NCBI GenBank assembly: GCA_016929205.1
Contig: JAFGJF010000112.1
Span: 1-9,577 of the forward strand
Source of the DNA: Anaerolineae bacterium
GTDB taxonomy: Bacteria > Chloroflexota > Anaerolineae > JAFGEY01
Reading direction: 5' to 3'
Length of the DNA: 9,577 nucleotides
Positions 83 through 9,577 of the stretch are shown here, piece after piece. How positions within the stretch are numbered: the first letter of the stretch is position 1; the number at the start of each line of letters is the position of its first letter. The notes under the pieces were generated by a model, which did no database searches, was not told where the DNA came from, and saw only the letters and a program-made list of their open reading frames with translations. Position numbers and translations under genes: made by a program.

Positions 83-865
83 TCACACCGGCGACGCCGT
101 CAACCTTTTGCAGAGATAGGCGCCTGTACAGGTATCTCCACGCCCACTCCGTCCTCGCAGAGCACGCGGCACAAGAGGTGCTTGATCAAAAACGCCATCG
201 TGATAAAGCAGCACGCCGCTTGAGTGGGTCATCAGAATCTCGCGTGGGCCATACTCGGCCAGCCGGCGAGCTGCCGTGCGCCGGTCAGACTCGCCGGTGA
301 GCAACCTGGCCTCGACTGCATCAGTCTTGAGCACGGTGACGTGCCGCAAAACAGTTTCCTTGCCCGGCCAAGTGTCGTGCGTGAGTGTGCCATTGCAAAG
401 AACCCGGATAAAGCCCTGTACATCCAGCGCAATCATCGCGCCTCGCGCGGCCAAAACCTCTACAATCTCGGGCGGTATCTCACCCCGCACTGACGAGGCG
501 ACGATGGCATAAGCACGGGCTTGCACGTGGGCCACATCTTGAACAGCAAAAGGGCCCGCCGATCTGCTCAGTTCAATGGTACGTTCATCCAGGTTGTCGG
601 TCGGATAGATCAGACGCAACAGCGTAGAGGAAGGCGTGGCGCGGGCGAACATCGTCACACCCAGACGCTCTAGTTTTTTGACCGCGCCCCAGTCCTCCCG
701 GGCCAAGCGGGTCACAACCGCAACTCGCAGCCCCATGCGAGCGGCAACGTTCGCTCCAAAGAAATATGCCCCGCCGTCCACAGTCCGCGTGGCATGAGGG
801 TAGACAATTGTATCCTTGGTATAGTGACCGATAAAAGCGACGTCAAATGGCACAGATTGAGTCAT
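83..865 (-). CDS. PfkB-family sugar kinase, C-terminus shortened
   Basis: 260 residues of the ribokinase/PfkB fold, which phosphorylates sugars or nucleosides with ATP. The N-terminal substrate region has VDGGAYFFGANVAARMGL (29-46), the family's GG....NvA..laklG signature. LDVQGFIR (147-154) and KTDAVEARLLTGE (180-192) are the usual central motifs. The catalytic anion-hole motif is GRGD (241-244, Asp244), a variant of GAGD. Only 16 residues follow it, while relatives normally carry another 40-50 (helix, ATP-contacting loop and last strand). The coding sequence ends SPV-stop where a helix of the form SPEEA is expected, and a repeat cluster starts within 10 nt. No continuation of the family sequence is evident to me in the other two frames. 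The ATG at 865 has GGAGG at 870-874, four nt upstream, and follows the P-loop kinase by 33 nt. It may be a damaged gene or a genuinely short variant; the substrate is unknown. Confidence 0.8.
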   Translation of the reverse strand: MTQSVPFDVAFIGHYTKDTIVYPHATRTVDGGAYFFGANVAARMGLRVAVVTRLAREDWGAVKKLERLGVTMFARATPSSTLLRLIYPTDNLDERTIELSRSAGPFAVQDVAHVQARAYAIVASSVRGEIPPEIVEVLAARGAMIALDVQGFIRVLCNGTLTHDTWPGKETVLRHVTVLKTDAVEARLLTGESDRRTAARRLAEYGPREILMTHSSGVLLYHDGVFDQAPLVPRALRGRSGRGDTCTGAYLCKRLTASPV

Positions 866-898: not shown

Positions 899-2107
899 TC
901 AACCAACTCGCTGGGGATCACCCAAGATCTTGGCGATTTCAGGCGTTGTCCATATCGCTGCCCCGGTCGTGTCAACGACAATATCGCATACTTGCATCTG
1001 CGGCACGTAACATTTCTGAGCCATCAAAAATTGGCTTCTAAAGAACCTGTTGCAAAAGTAAATGGGTTCGTATTTTTTCCGGTAATCAATGTCGCGTTTC
1101 CATTTCCGCTTTAGCCTGATCGGATCATCGGTCAGATACACTACTTTGATCCCGATCAAATGCACGACCTCCTGAAGCAGAAATGGGAAATTGCCCTCGA
1201 TAAAAATGATATCGGCCGGCTCGATCTCAATCGGAATGCAGCCGGCCTTTAGCTTGCCGTTCAGGTTGTGGCTTGAGGTGGCATAAACAAAATCATACCT
1301 GGGGATGGTTATCTTGTGCCCTTGGCAAATATCTTCAAGACTCTGTTTGAAAAGGCTCAAGTGGATGGCCTCTTTGCCCAGAGTATAGATGCCTTTCTCC
1401 TCTCGATAGTCTCTGTCGGTTAAAAAGTTGTCCATCTCAATGGAAGTGGTTTTCCCGACTGTTTGCTCAAATGAACTGCGCAGGCGTTCAACGATCTCGG
1501 TCTTGCCAGCCGCCGTAGGCCCGGCAATTGCGAGCACAATGGGTGTTCCTTTGGCAGCGACGAGCGTTTTGACACTTGTTATAAAGAGCTGATCCACCGC
1601 GGCATTTGCTTCTTTAAAATCTTGATAGCCAACGTCCTGATAGCACTCAAATCGCTTTTGCTTCTGCTCGAAACGCCTGTATGGCTTGCCGCCCAGATGC
1701 GCCAACACCTGGTCGGTGAAATAGAGGGTCCGGTGCAAAAAGTAAAACCCCCTGATGTCAAAGTAAAAATGCGCGCTAACCCACTCCACCGGGTATTTTC
1801 CCGTGACCAGACCCACAAAGAGCATATTTGTCAGACGAACAATGTTTTCATCCAGTACAATCCTGCCATCAACCCGTGGCCTGATCTGGATACTGGCATA
1901 AAAATCGCTCGTGTTGATCAGCCTTTCGATCTCTTTTTTTTCATCCAGTTCTACAGAGGCCCATCCCCCATTCTTAGGATACATGTTGTCGAGCGCGTAG
2001 CGGAATTCATAGCGTTCCAATTTCCCTACGCCCACGTTGATCTGCTTTATTTTTTCATACAGGATTTCAGAAAAAGCTTTCGGACTCCAGGTGTTCGATT
2101 CTGCCAT
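899..2107 (-). CDS. Uridine-kinase/phosphoribulokinase-like P-loop kinase with an unrecognised N-terminal domain
   Basis: 402 residues. The C-terminal half is a small-molecule kinase of the uridine kinase/phosphoribulokinase group: Walker A GPTAAGKT (196-203), Asp226 in SIEMDNFL as the likely base/Mg2+ residue, ITIPRYDF (266-273) matching the V--P-YD segment of these kinases, IIFIEGNFP (300-308) as the second Asp/Glu strand, and the lid helix RKWKRDIDYRKK (334-345). Residues 1-180 have no family I recognise; they are mixed, contain aromatic-rich VSAHFYFDIRGFYFLHRTLY (110-129), and have no membrane segment or signal. Ordinary uridine kinases are about 210 residues and lack this part. The ATG at 2107 has AAGGAGG at 2112-2118, directly next to the apgM stop codon, so translation is coupled to that gene. 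The phosphate acceptor is unknown. Archaeal 2-phosphoglycerate kinase, attractive given the mutases, is an alternative, but the motifs look more like uridine kinase. Confidence 0.78.
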   Translation of the reverse strand: MAESNTWSPKAFSEILYEKIKQINVGVGKLERYEFRYALDNMYPKNGGWASVELDEKKEIERLINTSDFYASIQIRPRVDGRIVLDENIVRLTNMLFVGLVTGKYPVEWVSAHFYFDIRGFYFLHRTLYFTDQVLAHLGGKPYRRFEQKQKRFECYQDVGYQDFKEANAAVDQLFITSVKTLVAAKGTPIVLAIAGPTAAGKTEIVERLRSSFEQTVGKTTSIEMDNFLTDRDYREEKGIYTLGKEAIHLSLFKQSLEDICQGHKITIPRYDFVYATSSHNLNGKLKAGCIPIEIEPADIIFIEGNFPFLLQEVVHLIGIKVVYLTDDPIRLKRKWKRDIDYRKKYEPIYFCNRFFRSQFLMAQKCYVPQMQVCDIVVDTTGAAIWTTPEIAKILGDPQRVG

Positions 2108-2118
2108 CAGGCCTCCTT

Positions 2119-3324
2119 TTATGCACCAAATTTGGTGATACGCTGCGCATTTGCCAGCGCAATAGGCATCACGTCCTTTGCCGGCAGTACGCCGAGACTG
2201 CCACGCGCGCAGGCGCGTTCGCCAAATTCGGCAATACCATCTGCGCGAACGTACCGGGAGTACAGCAGTGTTGGCACGGGATGCCAGCTATGTGCCTTGA
2301 GCACAGCCGGCGTCGAGTGATCGCCGCTGACGATAACCACATCCGGCTTGAGCGCCAGCAAGCGCGGCATCAGCGCATCCACTTGTTCGATAACGCGCAC
2401 CTTGCGCGCAAAGTCGCCGTCCGAGCCTGCGGTATCTGTTTCCTTGACGTGCAGATAAAAAAAGTCCAAGTCGCTCCAGTTCCGCTCTAGCGCTGCAAAT
2501 TCATCCTCAACCGTATCGCCATCAACCTTTAGCACGTCCATCCCGGCCAATCTCGCTACCCCACGATACATGCCATTCACCGCAATGGCTGCCGCGCGCA
2601 GGCCGAACAGCTCGAGGTACGTCGGCAACGCGGGAAACCTGGCAAAGCCTCGCAACAAGATCATGTTTGCAGGATGCTTGTTCGCCAACACCTGGCGCGC
2701 CCGCTCGACGAACTGGTTGACGAGTCGCGCCGCTTTTTCGGAATCCGGCTTGAGCGCTCGCACCGGCCGTGCAGGTACGCCGATCTTCCATGGATCCGTT
2801 TCGGTCAATGCGTCACCCAATCCAGGGCCGCGCATAATAAAAGCGAAACGATGCTCTTTGACCGGCTCGATAAAAAATTCAACGCCGCTCACTTTGATCG
2901 CCCGCAGCAGCTTTGCCAACTCTTTGCTCACATCGGTCGAGACGCGTCCTGCACGACGATCCGTCAACAACCCCGTCGCGTCCACCGAACAGAAATTACC
3001 GCGCGCTGCCACGTCATCTGGACCCAATTCGAAATCGACGCCGAGCGCCTCCAGCGCCCCGCGTCCGATTGGGTATTGGATTGGATCGTAACCGAAAATA
3101 CCGAGGTGACCGGGACCACTACCCGGCGTGATGCCCGGCCCGACAGGTACAGTGAGCCCCAAAGCCGACTGCGCAGCCAGCGCGTCGAGATGGACTGTGT
3201 GCGCGGTTTCGAGTTCGGTTTTGCCGCCCGGCTCAAGCGGCAGCCCGCCCAGTCCATCCATAATAATCATCGCAATTTTCGTTTGAGCGGGCACAATCAG
3301 TTTTTGCAGAAATTCGAAATCCAT
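2119..3324 (-). CDS. apgM: ApgM-type cofactor-independent phosphoglycerate mutase
   Basis: 401 residues of the alkaline-phosphatase superfamily, archaeal/bacterial ApgM branch, which interconverts 3- and 2-phosphoglycerate. Metal-binding Asp23 is in IIMDGLGG. The nucleophile is expected at Ser69 in PGSGPGHLGIFGYDP. GRGALEALG (88-96) and RGNFCSVD (108-115) are typical of the family. HVKETDTAGSDGD (292-304) corresponds to the DxxGH ligand motif but has Ser301 where archaeal members carry His; as I recall, bacterial members often carry Glu there. Asp335-His336 sit in VSGDHSTP and His348 in HSWHPVP. The ATG at 3324 has AAGGA seven nt upstream and begins 15 nt after the permuted mutase. Two mutases of the same reaction side by side is odd and suggests that one has another substrate. 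A relative, the proposed homoserine kinase of this fold, is less likely because the PGSGPGH and SWHPVP motifs fit the mutase. Confidence 0.88.
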   Translation of the reverse strand: MDFEFLQKLIVPAQTKIAMIIMDGLGGLPLEPGGKTELETAHTVHLDALAAQSALGLTVPVGPGITPGSGPGHLGIFGYDPIQYPIGRGALEALGVDFELGPDDVAARGNFCSVDATGLLTDRRAGRVSTDVSKELAKLLRAIKVSGVEFFIEPVKEHRFAFIMRGPGLGDALTETDPWKIGVPARPVRALKPDSEKAARLVNQFVERARQVLANKHPANMILLRGFARFPALPTYLELFGLRAAAIAVNGMYRGVARLAGMDVLKVDGDTVEDEFAALERNWSDLDFFYLHVKETDTAGSDGDFARKVRVIEQVDALMPRLLALKPDVVIVSGDHSTPAVLKAHSWHPVPTLLYSRYVRADGIAEFGERACARGSLGVLPAKDVMPIALANAQRITKFGA

Positions 3325-3339
3325 ATCGCCATCCTTCCG

Positions 3340-4950
3340 TCAGTGCGCGATGCATTTTTTCCCGACGCCAAACACAAATGCGTCGTATGCGCGTTTGGTC
3401 TTGGCATAGTTGCCGTCGCGGTCGAGAGCAATTCCTCTGCCAACGCCGGAAACGATTCGCCCTATCCCGATCTCTTGTACCTGGCTCTCCAGCTTTTCTA
3501 GCATCTCGGGTGCGCTTCCCGGCTCTGTACTCCGCCCATCGAAGATGACGTGCAAATAGACTTGGCTCAAATCGTTTGCCTTTGCCATTCGCAACAACGC
3601 CAGCGGATAATCGATAGAACCATGAGAGCTTTTCTCTGTGAGCAGACCAATCAAGTGTAAGCTCGCATTCCGTCGCTTGACCTCATCGATCGTACGACAG
3701 AGCGTTTCGTTGGTGTAAAACGAGCCATCCTTCATCGCGAGATCGAGCCGCACGTCATCCTGCAAAACAACACGTCCGGCCCCGATGTTCATATGCCCCG
3801 CTTCGGAATTGCCGGCCTTGCCCGGCTGTAGACCGACCGCGTCACCTGCAGCCTGCAACTGGGCACACGGATACCGACGTATCAGATCGTCCCATACTGG
3901 CGTTTGCGCGACAAAGATCGGGTTCGTGCTATCATTTTTGCCGATGCCCCAGCCATCGAGAATGACAAGCAATACGCGCCTTCGTCCAACCCAGTCGTAA
4001 CCGGGTGCGAGCGTTCTGCCGGTCATAGCAGCCGGTGCCACGATATCGAGTGCGCATAGCACGGTGGGCGCAATATCCGCGAGGCTTCCGTTATGCACGT
4101 TAGCACGCGCCTGGGCGCGTGGATCGACCAGAATGAATGGAACAGAATTGGTCGTATGCGCAACGTGTGGCGTTCCATCGGGGCCGGTCATCTCTTCGAG
4201 GTTGCCGTGGTCAGCCGTCACGAGAATGACATAGTCAGCCGCGAGCGCGGCGTTCACAGCCTGTCCCAGTCGTACATCCACAAACTCGGCGCATTCGATC
4301 TTGGTGCCACAGTCCTGTGTGTGACCAATCACGTCACCGTTCGCGAAATTGGCCACGACAAGATCGTACCCTTGATCGATGCCACGTAAAACCTGTTTGG
4401 TCACTTGTGCCAGACTCAGTTCGGGGACCCGATCGAGAGGGATGCCCTTGGGCGACGGAATGCACACATCCTCCTCGCTTGTGAACGGCTGGTGGTTGCC
4501 TCCGTTGAAGAAAAAGGTAACGTGCGCAAATTTTTCCGATTCGGCGACGCGCAGTTGGCGCAGGCCCGCCCGGCTGACGATTTCGCCCAGGGTGTCTTCG
4601 ATCCTGGTTGGCGCAAAGGCAACAGGCAGGTTTTCGAACTTGACGTGATACAGGGTCAGGATCACGAAAGTGAGGTTTTGAAAATCGCGCCTCGGGAAGC
4701 GATCCCACTCGGGTGCGACAAACGCTTCCGTCAACTGGATTTCGCGTTCGCCACGACGACAGCAAAAAACGACCGCATCATCATCGTTTATGCGACCGAC
4801 AGGTTTCCCCTGCACGTCGACCAAGACAATCGGTTCGAGTAAGTAATCTGTCTGTCTTTGGCGATACAACTCTCTGACGGCATTAGCGAGCGCGGTGTCG
4901 CCGCGCGAGAGGTGTTCGGTGGGCATGCGGAACTCGGTCAAGTGGGGCAA
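3340..4950 (-). CDS. Circularly permuted GpmI-type cofactor-independent phosphoglycerate mutase
   Basis: 536 residues containing every part of a GpmI-type mutase (interconverts 3- and 2-phosphoglycerate, two metal ions, Ser nucleophile) in rotated order. Residues 18-115 match the second half of the transferase domain (TDYLLEPIVLVD, VVFCCRRGER, Arg65/Arg68). Residues 115-315 match the C-terminal phosphatase part: Lys140 in AESEKFAHVTFFFNGG, Asp206 and His210 in NFANGDVIGHT, Asp247-His248 in TADHGN, His265 in AHTTNSVPF, ending IAPTVLCAL and MTGRTL. After the linker APGYDWVGRRR comes the usual N-terminus: VLLVILDGWG with Asp332, nucleophile Ser382 in GNSEAGHMNIGAGR, His443, DGR at 471-473, Arg505, Arg511, ending KRAYDAFVFGVG, where the canonical chain would run on into residue 18. 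The Asp after DGR (Asp154 in the Geobacillus enzyme) is Ser474. Total length equals one normal enzyme (about 510-540), so nothing is duplicated or lost. The start is TTG with AGGGA seven nt upstream; ATG at 4926 is the alternative. Confidence 0.88.
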   Translation of the reverse strand: MPHLTEFRMPTEHLSRGDTALANAVRELYRQRQTDYLLEPIVLVDVQGKPVGRINDDDAVVFCCRRGEREIQLTEAFVAPEWDRFPRRDFQNLTFVILTLYHVKFENLPVAFAPTRIEDTLGEIVSRAGLRQLRVAESEKFAHVTFFFNGGNHQPFTSEEDVCIPSPKGIPLDRVPELSLAQVTKQVLRGIDQGYDLVVANFANGDVIGHTQDCGTKIECAEFVDVRLGQAVNAALAADYVILVTADHGNLEEMTGPDGTPHVAHTTNSVPFILVDPRAQARANVHNGSLADIAPTVLCALDIVAPAAMTGRTLAPGYDWVGRRRVLLVILDGWGIGKNDSTNPIFVAQTPVWDDLIRRYPCAQLQAAGDAVGLQPGKAGNSEAGHMNIGAGRVVLQDDVRLDLAMKDGSFYTNETLCRTIDEVKRRNASLHLIGLLTEKSSHGSIDYPLALLRMAKANDLSQVYLHVIFDGRSTEPGSAPEMLEKLESQVQEIGIGRIVSGVGRGIALDRDGNYAKTKRAYDAFVFGVGKKCIAH

Positions 4951-5720
4951 GACGTATTCCCTGATCGTGAATAGCTGGCGTCACGCGGAACCCGGCGCGC
5001 CGGGAAAATATCCAAGAGCTCGCGTAATTCGTGAATGCTCAGATCGGGCTTTTCCTCACCGATATGGGGCTCTTTATTCAGTGTAGCCGATTCCTTCAGA
5101 ATGATGGTCATCCCAAATCCAGCCAGCCGGGCACCCAGAATATCGCGGGAGGGATTATCTCCCACATACGCCGACCGGGCAGGGTCAACGCCAGCCCTAC
5201 GGGCCGCTTCCAGGTATATCTCTGGACCAGGTTTTCGGTATCGAACCTGTGAAGAAAGGATCACCGTCTTGAAATATGTGGTGAGCCCGTCCTCTTCCAG
5301 CCAGTCCGGGATTTCAGTCTCGGTAATCGTATTGGCAATAATCCCCAGGCAGTAGCCGCGATTGCTCAGTTCGATGACCACTTGTTTGACATCCGGCCGC
5401 GCGACCCGGCGCCCGTCGCGATCGCGCCACAGACGAGTCAGTTTACCGGATAGTGGCGCAACTTTGTCAGCTGGCAAATCCGGCAGCATCCAGTGTGTCC
5501 ACAATTCCTTTTCGGATGATTCGATCAGGGTCTCTTTGGCCTGCTTTCTACAGACCTTGTACCTTTTAGCCAACCGCTCACAGAAAGCCTCGGGGGATTC
5601 ATGCGCTCCGACCAGCGTCGCGAGCTGCTGTCTGGCCTGGGCTTGGAACGGCTCATCTTGCACCACAATTCGCAGCGTGTTGCCAACATCGATGAAAATG
5701 GCTTCAATGTCGTGACGCAT
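4938..5720 (-). CDS. HAD-superfamily hydrolase-like protein (second of a tandem pair)
   Basis: 260 residues, a paralogue of the preceding gene. Motif I is FIDVGNTL with Asp11 as nucleophile and Gly13 in place of the usual second Asp. Motif II reads GIIANT, so the Ser found in the sister protein is Ala129 here. Motif III is Lys163 in YRKPGPEIY, and motif IV is Asp188 and Asp193 in VGDNPSRD. The helical cap spans roughly residues 18-105. Loss of both the acid/base Asp and the motif II Ser makes ordinary phosphatase activity doubtful, although the nucleophile and metal ligands remain. The ATG at 5720 has AAAGG eight nt upstream. The last codons overlap the start of the permuted mutase gene by 13 nt, and the tail after the final helix (about residues 243-260, ending SGNTSCPT) looks non-conserved. 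Duplication followed by divergence is likely; the substrate is unknown. Confidence 0.87.
   Translation of the reverse strand: MRHDIEAIFIDVGNTLRIVVQDEPFQAQARQQLATLVGAHESPEAFCERLAKRYKVCRKQAKETLIESSEKELWTHWMLPDLPADKVAPLSGKLTRLWRDRDGRRVARPDVKQVVIELSNRGYCLGIIANTITETEIPDWLEEDGLTTYFKTVILSSQVRYRKPGPEIYLEAARRAGVDPARSAYVGDNPSRDILGARLAGFGMTIILKESATLNKEPHIGEEKPDLSIHELRELLDIFPARRVPRDASYSRSGNTSCPT
4958..4962 (-). promoter_or_regulatory. Ribosome binding site supporting a TTG start within the HAD gene
   Basis: AGGGA lies seven nt before the TTG at 4950, inside the 3' end of the HAD gene. The alternative ATG at 4926 has only a weak GAG in front. This favours the TTG start and translational coupling by overlap. 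Confidence 0.5.
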
Positions 5721-5769: not shown

Positions 5770-6555
5770 TCATAGATCAGCCCTGTTTGGAGTAACAAGA
5801 TTAACAACTTGGCTCAGATCATGGATGACTGCATCGGGCAGCACATTACCCGTACCACAGTCGGCCTTATCGGTGAGGAAAGATTTGATTTGAATGACTA
5901 ACCCATACCCGGCACGCCGCGCCCCAATGACATCACGAGACACGGTATCGCCCACGTAAGCGCAAGCAGCAGGTGTCAGATTCATTAACCGGGCCGCCTC
6001 GATGAAAATTCGCGCATTGGGTTTGCGCCAACCAAATTGCGCACTGGTGACGACAGGATTGAAATAGTGTTCAATACCATACTGCTTGAGGCTGTGCAAA
6101 ACAACTCGGTGGCTGATGATGTTGGAGATAATGGCCAAGCAAAAACCCCGCTTATACAGCGAGTCAAGAAGCTCCGGAGCTTCGGGACGCAAAGAACGCA
6201 CTTGAAAATGTGTCTCGTAAAAGAATGTAAGATCTTGGGCTGCGGCCATCAGCCCAAGATCCCACTTATAGGACCGACCGTGAGGCAAATCGTGATTCGC
6301 AAAAATGTACTCCGTCCACACCCGCTCCGGCGGCAACTCGACCTCGCTTTCCTTGCGCCAACCCTGGTATGCCTTCATCCCCGAAAGGAGAGTGGCCTGC
6401 AGATCAGGCAAATCCAGGCCAGGATCGAGGTCCCGCGCTGTCAAAAGCTCTTGCAGGCCGCGGGTAGCCTCCTGGCGGATAGCATCGTCGTAATAAAGGT
6501 CCTCAAGCGTGCCGCCCATGTCAAAAACGACAGCCCGGATGGGGGTTACTGCCAT
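5770..6555 (-). CDS. HAD-superfamily hydrolase-like protein (first of a tandem pair)
   Basis: 261 residues with the haloacid-dehalogenase core and an alpha-helical cap inserted after motif I (about residues 18-120). Motif I is FDMGGTL with nucleophile Asp12, but the +2 position that normally carries the acid/base Asp is Gly14. Motif II is Ser144 in AIISN, motif III Lys178 in WRKPN, and motif IV Asp203 and Asp208 in VGDTVSRD. Thus the fold, nucleophile and Mg2+ site are kept and the usual phosphatase acid/base is missing. DxG-type HADs are common and mostly uncharacterised; they may be slow phosphatases or act on other substrates. The start is set by AGGAG at 6564-6568. The protein is clearly paralogous to the next gene: the second halves share RGxCLxII, YVGDxxSRDxxGARxAG and a closing PDxxIH. 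It lies 104 nt after the solute-binding protein gene. The substrate cannot be told. Confidence 0.88.
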   Translation of the reverse strand: MAVTPIRAVVFDMGGTLEDLYYDDAIRQEATRGLQELLTARDLDPGLDLPDLQATLLSGMKAYQGWRKESEVELPPERVWTEYIFANHDLPHGRSYKWDLGLMAAAQDLTFFYETHFQVRSLRPEAPELLDSLYKRGFCLAIISNIISHRVVLHSLKQYGIEHYFNPVVTSAQFGWRKPNARIFIEAARLMNLTPAACAYVGDTVSRDVIGARRAGYGLVIQIKSFLTDKADCGTGNVLPDAVIHDLSQVVNLVTPNRADL

Positions 6556-6563
6556 GAATTGGT

Positions 6564-6568
6564 CTCCT
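6564..6568 (-). promoter_or_regulatory. Ribosome binding site deciding the start of the first HAD gene
   Basis: AGGAG eight nt before the ATG at 6555. The alternative TTG at 6588 would place this site inside the coding region and has no comparable site upstream. Confidence 0.7.
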
Positions 6569-6659
6569 ATGCCCAGCCGGAGCGGCAAAACCCATCTCCG
6601 CCCCGATACGAAAGAAATCGCTCACTCGTTCCTGGCGTCCATCTGAACTTGTTCTACGC

Positions 6660-7859
6660 TTATGGAGCAAGCAGGCTGACGGCCCAAAAGTCGCGCACTT
6701 GGCTGGCGTTTTCATAGGAGAACAGATCATCGCTGGGCCAGAGACTCAGTTCTTCCCGAGGGGGCATGCCCTCGGCAGCAGAAAGACCTTCAGTTGCCGG
6801 GTAAGCGCCTATCTTGTTCCAGGGATCAAAACCATCCTGCGAAAGAGCGAATCGGATGAACAATTTGGCTGCATTGGGGTGCGGAGCGTTGTTGGCAATG
6901 GCCAGATAGCTGGCTTTCAAGATACCCAACACCGGTTCGAGACCCATGCAGGGTGCCATGGCCAATTCTCCATCCAGGGTATTCTCGTAGCTCGAGTAAC
7001 CGGTCCAGCCGTACCCGGGTTCTACCGCTGGATCCATACCAAGCGTCGCAAATGCCGCGTCGACCTCATCGCCGCCGGGCTGAATGCCGGGTTGATTCTG
7101 GGCCAGCTTTTTGAGGAACAAATAACCCGCATTGGGAACATCCTCCCCATAGGCTTCATCCGCGGTCCACTCCTGGCCGTATAGTGTCTGATAGGCCGTA
7201 GCCATTTGATCTGCGTGTTGAACAATCAAGGCAATCTTGGCCGTCGTGCTCATATCTGCTAGCGGATCCTCCATAAAGAACTTGCCCTTTAGCGCCGGTT
7301 CGGTCAACTGCCACCAGTTGGTGAGCGGGCAGCCTTCCGGATGAATCTCGTTGTTGTACCCGATGACATCCACTGAGCGGCGCGCAAGCGCAAACGGCCG
7401 TTCGGCAGTGACCTCCGACTGCACCACCCCCGGAGGGAGGTACGACCAGATCCATTGATTGGGCACAAATTCCCCGTACAAGATGTGTCCATCGCTGTTG
7501 AACCAGACGTCTCCCACAACGTTCCCGGCCTCCTGCTCCGCACCCATTTTGATGGCGATGTCGTCGGTATCACCACCTTCAAGGGCAATGTCCGGGTATA
7601 ACTCGTTCCAGGCATCGAGTAATTTCTCAAACTTGGACGAGTTGGCATAAACAACCACTTTGCCTTCCAGCTTGGCCGCTGCTTCGACCGCCGCCCAGTC
7701 TTCCTCGGCGGGCTGGTACGGCCCGAGACCATTCGCCTGCGCCCATTGCTCGGCTGCAGTGAGTTCGGTGGCGGGGGGTTCGGTCGCGGCCGGTTTAGCG
7801 CAGCCAGCAACAAGGCTGACCAACAAACATACTGTCAAGAGTTTTACCAACGCTTTCAT
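6660..7859 (-). CDS. ABC transporter solute-binding lipoprotein, AfuA/FbpA-like (family 1)
   Basis: Extracytoplasmic receptor of the importer, 399 residues. It starts with MKALVKL, a hydrophobic segment and a lipobox VAGC with Cys20, so it should be lipid-anchored outside the membrane. A Pro/Ala/Thr/Glu-rich linker follows (residues 22-32), then the binding fold. GKVVVYANSSKFEKLLDAW is the typical first strand and helix of the iron/sugar-phosphate/aminoethylphosphonate group. NNAPHPNAAKLFIRFALS near the C-terminus is the standard closing helix motif of that group. The ATG at 7859 is chosen over a GTG at 7907 because of the perfect AAGGAGG five nt upstream and because only this start places the signal peptide at the N-terminus. 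Members of this fold bind Fe3+, hexose phosphates, phosphonates or polyamines. The neighbouring phosphoryl-transfer enzymes make a phosphorylated or phosphonate ligand more likely than iron, but that is inference. Confidence 0.92.
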   Translation of the reverse strand: MKALVKLLTVCLLVSLVAGCAKPAATEPPATELTAAEQWAQANGLGPYQPAEEDWAAVEAAAKLEGKVVVYANSSKFEKLLDAWNELYPDIALEGGDTDDIAIKMGAEQEAGNVVGDVWFNSDGHILYGEFVPNQWIWSYLPPGVVQSEVTAERPFALARRSVDVIGYNNEIHPEGCPLTNWWQLTEPALKGKFFMEDPLADMSTTAKIALIVQHADQMATAYQTLYGQEWTADEAYGEDVPNAGYLFLKKLAQNQPGIQPGGDEVDAAFATLGMDPAVEPGYGWTGYSSYENTLDGELAMAPCMGLEPVLGILKASYLAIANNAPHPNAAKLFIRFALSQDGFDPWNKIGAYPATEGLSAAEGMPPREELSLWPSDDLFSYENASQVRDFWAVSLLAP

Positions 7860-7948
7860 TTTTTCCTCCTTGGAAAATAGTTGGGAAACGGAATCCTCGA
7901 AACACACTGTTCTACAACCCTCTGCTCTCTTTTTCTTTTCCTCCTTCT
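7860..7948 (-). promoter_or_regulatory. Leader of the solute-binding protein gene with two Shine-Dalgarno-like sites
   Basis: The leader before the lipoprotein gene holds two perfect AAGGAGG sequences. The one at 7865-7871 is five nt before the ATG at 7859 and is the working ribosome binding site. The other, at 7940-7946, is about 80 nt upstream and heads a run of almost pure purines extending to about 7918. It is not followed by any credible start codon: the nearby TTG runs straight into TAG, and a GTG at 7907 is badly placed. No convincing -35/-10 promoter was seen. A strong own ribosome site fits the usual need for excess binding protein. Confidence 0.5.
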
Positions 7949-7992: not shown

Positions 7993-9081
7993 CTAGTTTC
8001 TCGCGACGATCAATTTTCCGCTTTCTTGTTCGTACAGATTTAGCGTGTCTGGATCGAATCTCAGCCAGATCTTGTCATCCATCTCGATCTTGCTGATGCC
8101 CATTTCTCTGACGGTGATCTCTGTATCTGCCAAACGCGCCATGATGGTTGAATCGGCTCCCGACGGTAAGATAGAATATGCCGTGAACTCGACAGCTCCC
8201 TGAACAGGTTTTGTCGAGATGGCGATATCTTCTGGTCGTACGGCGACGACCACTTTTCCGGATGCGTTAGATGTATCCATGGCGATCTTGAACCTTCCGA
8301 GATCGACTGAATTATTTTCATTCACAACACCATCCAGCAGGTTCACCTTGGGGTTGCCAATGAAATCCGCCACAAACAGATTGGCCGGGTAATGGTAAAC
8401 GGCATCGGGCGATCCCACTTGCTGAAGAACGCCTTCTTTCATCACGGCAATATTGGAAGACATCGTCAACGCTTCTACTTGATCGTGGGTCACGTAAATT
8501 GTGGTCGCCCCGGCACTGCGGTGCAAACGTTTGATTTCCGACCGCATATCCATACGCAGGCGGGCATCCAGGTTGGAGAGCGGTTCGTCCATCAGGAATA
8601 CCTTGGGGCGATAGGCTAACATACGCGCCAGGGCAATACGCTGCTGCTGGCCGCCGCTCATCTCGCGTGGATAGCGGTCTTCGTAGCCGTCCATTTGCAC
8701 TTCGGCCAGGGCTTCTTTGACGCGTTTTTGCATCTCTTCTTTGCCCATTTTTTGGATCTCGAGAGCAAAAGTGATGTTTTTATCCACTTTCATATGCGGC
8801 CACAGGGCATAGTTCTGGAAGACCAAGCCCAGGTCGCGTTTTCCAGGAGGCAGCGATATGCCTTTGTCGTAAGAAAAAACCAGTTTATCGCCGATATAGA
8901 TCTCACCACCATCCGGTTCTTCAAGCCCGGCCACACAACGCAACAGCGTCGTCTTGCCACACCCAGAAGGACCCAGCAAGGTCAAAAAAGCTCCCGGCTC
9001 GACGGTCAGGCTGACATTGTCTATAGCAACGACTTTACCGAAACGTTTGCAAAGATTTTTGATGATGATTGTTGTTTCCAT
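7993..9081 (-). CDS. ABC transporter ATP-binding protein, FbpC/PotA/MalK class
   Basis: ATPase subunit that drives the importer, 362 residues. Visible motifs: Walker A GPSGCGKT (37-44), Q-loop Gln89 in VFQNYALWPH, signature MSGGQQQR (141-148), Walker B VFLMDE (161-166), D-loop SNLD, and switch His199 in YVTHDQ. After about residue 240 comes a beta-rich TOBE-type region containing VRPEDI, as in ATPases of the spermidine, iron and maltose importers. All residues needed for ATP hydrolysis are present. The ATG at 9081 is chosen over an upstream in-frame start at 9156: the upstream start would overlap the permease gene and add 25 residues that fit no family, while 9081 has GAGGGG at 9087-9092, five nt upstream, and begins with the usual short lead METTIIIKNLCKRFG. 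The gene sits between the permease and the solute-binding protein. The role is certain; the substrate is not. Confidence 0.95.
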   Translation of the reverse strand: METTIIIKNLCKRFGKVVAIDNVSLTVEPGAFLTLLGPSGCGKTTLLRCVAGLEEPDGGEIYIGDKLVFSYDKGISLPPGKRDLGLVFQNYALWPHMKVDKNITFALEIQKMGKEEMQKRVKEALAEVQMDGYEDRYPREMSGGQQQRIALARMLAYRPKVFLMDEPLSNLDARLRMDMRSEIKRLHRSAGATTIYVTHDQVEALTMSSNIAVMKEGVLQQVGSPDAVYHYPANLFVADFIGNPKVNLLDGVVNENNSVDLGRFKIAMDTSNASGKVVVAVRPEDIAISTKPVQGAVEFTAYSILPSGADSTIMARLADTEITVREMGISKIEMDDKIWLRFDPDTLNLYEQESGKLIVARN

Positions 9082-9086
9082 GGTTT

Positions 9087-9092
9087 CCCCTC
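9087..9092 (-). promoter_or_regulatory. Ribosome binding site of the ATPase gene
   Basis: GAGGGG on the minus strand, five nt before the ATG at 9081, inside the short gap after the permease stop. It decides the ATPase start in favour of 9081. Confidence 0.6.
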
Positions 9093-9094
9093 TG

Positions 9095-9577
9095 TTACAT
9101 TCCAAGCCCTCGTTTAAGACTGCCACCCCGAAACCGCGTGATGATAAAGTTGCCAAACGCGACGAGCGAGATCAGGATCAGAATGACCACGTTCGCCATC
9201 TGGCCATCTCCATTTTCGATATAGAACATGGTCTGGCTGGCCAGCACCTGAGTTTGCGGCGTGACCAGCAGGATGATCAAAGACAGTTCGCGCATGGTAG
9301 TGATAAAGGTCAGCAGGAATCCGGCGACAAAGCCGGCGCTAGTGAGCGGAAAGATAAGGCGCACGAAACGCTGCCAGACATTGGCGCCGGAGATCTGCCC
9401 CGCCTCTTCCAGCTCCCGGCCAACCTGCATCATAGCTGAAACTCCCGAACGGGAGGAATACGGGATATGTTTGGCCACCGAGACGATCACCAGCAGGGCA
9501 AAGGTCCCGTACAAAGCCGGGAGCGGCCCGAGCGGCTTGATGAACATCGCAATGTAAACTGCGCCAAAGGCGATGCC
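9095..9577 (-). CDS. ABC transporter permease, FbpB/ThiP-like, C-terminal part (5' end outside window)
   Basis: Only the last 160 residues are visible; the frame stays open to the right edge, so the Met at 9547 is probably internal. This is the inner-membrane channel subunit of a binding-protein-dependent importer. Three hydrophobic stretches are seen (around YGTFALLVIVSVA, LTSAGFVAGFLLTFI and VVILILISLVAFG), plus the beginning of a further one at the edge. The cytoplasmic EAA loop that docks onto the ATPase reads EEAGQISGANVWQRF followed by IFPL, matching the EAA---G---------I-LP consensus. The segment MRELSLIILL after the loop resembles permeases of the ferric-iron, thiamine and 2-aminoethylphosphonate type. 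Its stop codon lies 13 nt before the ATPase start, so the two are surely co-transcribed. The family assignment is firm; the substrate is unknown. The full gene would probably encode a two-unit permease of roughly 500-570 residues, but the window cannot show this. Confidence 0.9.
   Translation of the reverse strand, partial: GIAFGAVYIAMFIKPLGPLPALYGTFALLVIVSVAKHIPYSSRSGVSAMMQVGRELEEAGQISGANVWQRFVRLIFPLTSAGFVAGFLLTFITTMRELSLIILLVTPQTQVLASQTMFYIENGDGQMANVVILILISLVAFGNFIITRFRGGSLKRGLGM

Follow-up and report, generated by a model that had tools for sequence, protein, structure and literature searches.

The stretch of DNA analysed here, referred to below as the window, comprises 9,577 nucleotides from an Anaerolineae bacterium of the Chloroflexota (assembly GCA_016929205.1, contig JAFGJF010000112.1). 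Among its genes, which all lie on one strand, is a minus-strand open frame listed at 3340-4950 that a preliminary description, made from the letters of the DNA, had read as a naturally circularly permuted phosphoglycerate mutase (PGM) of the GpmI (iPGM) type. The permutation is confirmed, and what 3340-4926 (-) encodes is truly a circularly permuted form of GpmI. Alignment of the family points to the ATG at 4926, not to 4950, as the likely start codon, giving a protein of 528 amino acids.

The rotated order emerges from two comparisons with the Geobacillus iPGM (1ejj). By phmmer, in the numbering of the 536-residue frame, query residues 25-314 match canonical residues 220-508, and query residues 323-531 match canonical residues 3-211. 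When 1ejj is doubled, the best BLASTP alignment is a single unbroken one, as the preliminary description had anticipated, running over query residues 17-522 and 510 columns at 39.2% identity and 363 bits, versus two pieces of 207 and 167 bits with a single copy. The window protein retains the GpmI fold and departs from the canonical order of N-terminal phosphatase part, transferase domain and C-terminal phosphatase part. The new chain ends were described as falling inside the transferase domain, which would then be built from both ends of the chain around a contiguous phosphatase domain; this arrangement is supported by the sequence and fits a structure model, with the domain boundaries of the Geobacillus enzyme drawn at 76/77 and 310/311. 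The linker once counted as 11 residues shrinks to an eight-residue connector outside the canonical alignment (APGYDWVG), and of the 58 proteins with both motifs (81 scanned), 56 have MTGxxL and ILDGWG spaced 14 or 15 residues apart.

The window's gene is not a single odd case, a notion ruled out by its many relatives with the identical rotated order. Among the best 120 of 8000 scored proteins, the first of which is the window's own, the other 119 are 74-84% identical to it across 92-100% of the query, and all 120 are rotated (117 by the first pattern, with three differing in the T of TADHG). When genomes were scanned, 243 of 271 matching stretches proved to be relatives; the best 80 were kept as loci, and every one has the permuted order. 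Their titles name Anaerolineae and other Chloroflexota, Clostridia (Oscillibacter, Butyricicoccus and others, some of them from gut and rumen), one Actinomycetes metagenome-assembled genome (MAG) and one Thorarchaeota MAG. Strain-titled loci include Levilinea saccharolytica KIBI-1 (L010) and Oscillibacter valericigenes An411 (L039).

The permuted family is uncommon yet widespread. Taking a full-length single-piece match to mean rotated order, we found it in 1 of 196 genomes in the class of genome G034 (the centre of that sample itself), in 19 of 249 in the class of G010 (seven of them, centre included, already behind the loci), in 2 of 296 in the phylum of G031 and in 5 of 195 in the phylum of G029, one in each of the last two being the centre. 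G029 is the genome of the Thorarchaeota-titled record, and by that name, in one record, its phylum is apparently archaeal. In a sample of 201 Chloroflexota genomes searched with TIGR01307, the rotated two-piece pattern appears in G010 (the centre) and G049 among the matches listed. Permuted matches in the G034 class, the G010 class and the G029 phylum score at least 468 bits, and the other matches in the two classes end at 311 and 287.5 bits, respectively.

Two subfamilies can be told apart. Eight of the 19 genomes in the G010 class score 912-951 bits and are of the window's type (A), and the other eleven score 491-566 bits (B). The four additional genomes of the G029 phylum, at 468-493 bits, group with B, so that this second permuted subfamily spans 11 Anaerolineae genomes and four of the apparently archaeal phylum. 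Two of these four have the type-B gene on a contig of megabase size (4.9 and 3.2 Mb), which argues against contamination. A tree of rotated sequences (14 A and 15 B against 21 canonical rows) places all permuted proteins on one side of a branch (100/99), with A and B each at 100/100; the one-clade grouping was repeated in another tree, and likewise in a separate tree of A only. Clostridia are nested within the Anaerolineae part of A both in the tree of A alone and in that of A with B, a position compatible with a transfer, depending on where the root lies. A phage or plasmid carrier was considered and rejected, as the 22 phage and 44 plasmid records that match are all less than 60% identical; the phage (20) and plasmid (5) matches listed are all two-piece, in line with canonical genes. 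Duplication and trimming of a canonical gene, the route first proposed, is plausible; no intermediate was seen, and tandem iPGM copies were not searched for.

Alongside the rotation, the active site has changed in one consistent way. In the Bacillus enzyme, 2-phosphoglycerate (2-PG) and 3-phosphoglycerate (3-PG) are contacted by S62, H123, R153, D154, R185, R191, R261, R264 and K336 (PMC3886921). The nucleophile and two-metal site comprise Asp12, Ser62, Asp403, His407, Asp444, His445 and His462, and seven equivalents have been named for the Caenorhabditis elegans enzyme (PMC5382265). We compared these positions in 86 type-A proteins (80 from the loci and six listed proteins, not deduplicated; the L032 row is cut by a contig end) with 20 canonical proteins hand-picked from Clostridia and Chloroflexota. 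The serine nucleophile and the two-metal site are kept in 86 of 86 type-A proteins, in rows with the column, and also in the type-B and archaeal-phylum rows. Every permuted row with the column keeps eight of the nine substrate contacts, including the nucleophile. The ninth, Asp154, is lost: the canonical proteins all have Asp at this position (20 of 20), whereas type A has Ser (85 of 85 rows and two additional proteins, L112 and L117) and Gly stands in all 11 type-B Anaerolineae proteins and in all four from the extra G029-phylum genomes. Of the 102 permuted proteins that can be read at this column, not one has the Asp, a finding that is new here. DGRS is present in all 120 listed proteins.

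The surroundings of other contacts are rewritten too. Both subfamilies share SSHG where canonical proteins mostly have GVHS, and RGER where these mostly have RPDR or RADR; A carries CRRGER and B carries D/N-I/L-RGER. The rewritten motifs are invariant across 51 type-A alignment rows. Canonical-order proteins with the changed motifs were not seen, although no search was aimed at them and weaker matches were not individually inspected. Judged by these residues, the catalytic engine is intact and the substrate side changed consistently across the clade.

Nearly all of the genomes examined that carry a permuted gene have another PGM. In the 38 genomes behind a chosen 38 of the 80 loci, all type A, aPGM (archaeal-type PGM) occurs in 32, dPGM over its cut-off in 18 and a full-length canonical iPGM_N match in nine, which are all nine of the Bacillota-titled genomes searched; 36 of the 38 have at least one of them. 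The aPGM hit in many Chloroflexota genomes is the operon neighbour itself. Even so, of the 27 Chloroflexota-titled genomes all but G026 have either a dPGM or an aPGM that is distant or on another contig by the listed positions. All 11 type-B Anaerolineae genomes have aPGM, with no canonical iPGM_N match and no dPGM over cut-off. The total over both groups is 47 of 49 genomes examined. That the permuted gene replaces the housekeeping PGM is therefore unsupported, since other PGMs occur in nearly all of these genomes. Beside the permuted gene of G027 there is an extra partial iPGM_N match (G027:C432:3710-3895, positions 135-195, 38 bits).

Compared with known families, the window protein is closest to GpmI. 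It shares with the Geobacillus enzyme (1ejj/1o98) both domains, the nucleophile, the metal ligands, eight of nine substrate contacts and 39% identity, and, with its family, differs in the rotated chain, in Ser or Gly at Asp154, in the presence of a further PGM in 47 of 49 genomes examined and, in subfamily A, in the change of NFRPDR to CRRGER and of GGVHS to mostly KSSHG. It passes the TIGR01307 equivalog cut-off, in two stretches (498.4 versus 330.65 bits), and falls short of NCBIfam NF003897 (394 versus 862 bits). It belongs to the same metalloenzyme superfamily as aPGM (PRK04135; PF01676 is found in both), whose gene is its neighbour in the window, but lies below the aPGM cut-offs of TIGR00306 (38 versus 320 bits) and PRK04024 (32 versus 489 bits). 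The phosphopentomutase DeoB models (TIGR01696, PRK05362, PRK12383) give it 24 to 41 bits against cut-offs of 254 to 341. One listed protein, P0060 (935 residues; five member sequences, one contig), is a permuted protein fused to aPGM in one chain.

No description of a permuted iPGM was found in the literature searched, whose scope left subscription papers and preprints outside, and the string "permut" is absent from the main texts of PMC2964296, PMC5382265 and PMC12077085. PGM1 and PGM3 belong to the alpha-D-phosphohexomutase superfamily, which is unrelated to iPGM. They nevertheless provide the closest mutase precedent found, a natural circular permutation of PGM3 relative to PGM1 with the phosphoserine loop spatially retained (PMC5570346); about 60 residues within one domain are involved there, whereas here the whole chain is permuted.

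The window's genes are separated by gaps of 11 to 133 bases when the binding protein and the ATPase are given later starts (Table 1).

Table 1. Genes of the window and residue map of the permuted protein
Feature	Position	Strand	Basis or remark
pfkB-family carbohydrate kinase	83..865	-	
Phosphoribulokinase/uridine-kinase-like protein	899..2107	-	
Archaeal-type PGM	2119..3324	-	PRK04135, 567 bits versus cut-off 468; 15 bases from permuted gene
Circularly permuted iPGM-like gene, 528 residues, subfamily A	3340..4926	-	Profile, phmmer, BLASTP, family alignment
Residues 1-106, second part of transferase domain (to canonical ~310)	4609..4926	-	New N-terminus
CRRGER (residues 56-61), replacing NFRPDR	4744..4761	-	Arg261 and Arg264 equivalents kept
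Residues 107-388, whole phosphatase domain, contiguous	3763..4608	-	Canonical ~311-508, then 3-76
Lys132	4531..4533	-	Canonical Lys336
Asp198 and His202	4321..4335	-	Metal ligands Asp403 and His407
Asp239-His240	4207..4212	-	Metal ligands Asp444 and His445
His257	4156..4158	-	Metal ligand His462
Connector APGYDWVG (residues 307-314)	3985..4008	-	Joins old C- and N-termini
Asp324	3955..3957	-	Metal ligand Asp12
Ser374	3805..3807	-	Nucleophile Ser62 (GNSEAGH)
Residues 389-528, first part of transferase domain (canonical ~77-211)	3343..3762	-	New C-terminus
SSHGS (residues 433-437), replacing GVHSH	3616..3630	-	His123 kept as His435
Arg465-Ser466	3529..3534	-	Arg153 retained, Asp154 replaced by Ser
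Arg497	3436..3438	-	Canonical Arg185
Arg503	3418..3420	-	Canonical Arg191
HAD-family protein HAD1	4938..5720	-	11 bases upstream of permuted gene
HAD-family protein HAD2	5770..6588	-	
Probable ABC-importer binding protein	6660..7907	-	Model fits FbpA/AfuA/MctA class
ABC-importer ATPase	7993..9156	-	
ABC-importer permease	9095..9577	-	Continues past window end

Much of this neighbourhood recurs around other type-A genes. We counted same-strand genes labelled as relatives of window genes within 9 kb of the permuted gene; labels come from a home-made composition-scored gene caller and best BLAST hits, many of the 80 loci are cut by contig ends, and some neighbour clusters (for example c15 and c35) still look like reverse-strand shadow frames. 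HAD1 was found in 69 loci, HAD2 in 47, the binding protein in 34, the ATPase in 33 and the permease in 25. The pfkB kinase accompanies 25 loci, none of them among the 28 with Chloroflexota titles, and the phosphoribulokinase-like kinase (20 loci) and aPGM (19 loci) occur only within those 28. Counted anywhere in the locus, 49 of the 80 have a LacI-type cluster, 22 a membrane pyrophosphatase, 20 an MgtC-like protein and 18 RpiR; one member of each of these four clusters was scanned. The operon is sparse or missing in several type-A loci (for example L031, L033 and L061).

Several details of these surroundings deserve mention. In Clostridia (L030, L034, L035, L038 and others; c8, c9) the MgtC-like protein, the membrane pyrophosphatase and the pfkB kinase often come after the permuted gene. 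Members of IolB and IolD clusters (myo-inositol catabolism; one member of each scanned) lie near the permuted gene in six Anaerolineae loci (L010, L014, L016, L017, L020, L021), and other sugar-type genes, judged by eye, take the same position in L009, L012, L013, L023 and L026; the flanking operons thus give no single answer as to substrate. The HADs beside the permuted gene, in the window and in L001-L080, have a motif I of the form D-x-G-x-T (DVGNT, DVGAT, DLGGT, DMGGT), a pattern unmatched in 37 of 216 labelled HADs. As the commonest of these motifs have no acid two residues past the nucleophile, the HADs may not be ordinary phosphatases. In the kinase-like protein at 899-2107, about 180 residues ahead of the kinase domain are without a match in Pfam and NCBIfam scans.

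Type-B genes sit in other company. None of the eleven Anaerolineae genes has a neighbour labelled as HAD, kinase, binding protein or aPGM, and weak ABC-ATPase matches in L110 and L111 are the only labels. Three of these loci (L101, L103, L105) have a histidine-phosphatase-like gene next after the permuted gene. L113, L114 and L115 share as neighbours a small protein starting KIYLS..IRGGR and a long repeat-like protein, so context is conserved there, though it differs from that of the Anaerolineae loci.

These proteins form a naturally permuted GpmI/iPGM clade in which the substrate side has been remodelled, and we consider it likely that they are distinct from the housekeeping PGM. An intact engine, a consistently changed substrate side and other PGMs alongside favour a changed substrate or step over a glycolytic mutase. 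The chain was opened anew within the transferase domain (canonical ~211-220), and the short connector now links its former ends. With its two-metal, serine-nucleophile site intact in the alignments, the enzyme would very probably move a phosphoryl group via a phosphoserine, and is probably a phosphomutase or phosphotransferase that depends on metal and whose substrate would be a phosphoglycerate-like compound or another small phosphorylated acid or polyol. In subfamily A its role appears to lie in an uptake operon that combines an ABC importer, tandem HADs and sugar kinases, presumably under LacI- or RpiR-type regulators.

Several observations pull the other way. Eight of nine contacts are kept and TIGR01307 is passed, so phosphoglycerate could still be the substrate. 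In G029 and G031 none of canonical iPGM, aPGM and dPGM was found, although both are MAGs and such absences are weak because MAGs are incomplete. Subfamily B lacks the operon, which therefore does not define the whole family. Finally, the importer's binding protein had no match in Pfam and NCBIfam scans, and MctA, the iron binder HitA and AfuA fit its model within 1 Z unit; as iron, citrate and sugar-phosphate binders fit about equally, no ligand can be chosen.

Some of the same facts would suit a true phosphoglycerate mutase whose chain is incidentally permuted, with Ser or Gly, perhaps helped by the SSHG loop and a water, standing in for Asp154 and the enzyme providing an extra 3-PG/2-PG conversion. 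The retained contacts, nucleophile and metal ligands and the TIGR01307 score speak for it, as do the aPGM-labelled genes near 19 of the 80 loci and the aPGM fusion. We regard it as unlikely, given that Asp154 is missing from every readable permuted protein and present in every canonical one, that nearly all genomes examined have another PGM, and that the rewritten motifs are invariant in type A, as though selected differently. The preliminary identification as a phosphoglycerate mutase is for these reasons not established: Asp154 is replaced, the His123 loop and the Arg261/Arg264 stretch are rewritten and another PGM is nearly always present. "Permuted" is solid, "phosphoglycerate mutase" unproven.

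A phosphatase seems a slightly poorer prospect again. Here the phosphoserine would form but, lacking Asp154, the phosphate could not return and would be hydrolysed, in keeping with an intact phosphatase half and a lost residue on the transferase side. Yet no row with the column has lost His123, Arg153, Arg185, Arg191, Arg261 or Arg264, more conservation than a plain phosphatase should need, and the type-A operon already holds several HAD-family genes. It is very improbable that the protein is a non-catalytic relative with a regulatory role, as the loss of one contact residue might hint, when the nucleophile and metal ligands are found throughout the rows examined. Misassembly, or a chimera of two partial genes, can be dismissed because independent assemblies share the order in 80 of 80 loci, L010 and L039 among them, and in all 120 listed proteins, and the permuted proteins form one clade in trees.

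For a remodelled, permuted iPGM clade, the strongest form of the proposal is that permutation and Asp154 loss mark a new chain-rotated phosphoryl-transfer family with its own substrate, found in Chloroflexota, Clostridia and apparently archaea, serving in A an uncharacterised uptake pathway and misannotated as PGM; we would give this full statement an even chance. To our knowledge, it is rare for the whole chain of an enzyme of central metabolism to be circularly permuted in nature and for the rotation to have become fixed in a clade reaching from bacteria to apparently archaea. Since the rotation coincides with the loss of a substrate-contact residue, permutation and functional change are open to joint study. 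Many of the source-named members among the 120 listed proteins carry the name phosphoglycerate mutase and, together with the TIGR01307 score, this means that metabolic reconstructions may count permuted proteins as glycolytic. The permuted protein probably does a job other than the one databases assign to it, and the family may belong to an uncharacterised pathway instead of glycolysis.
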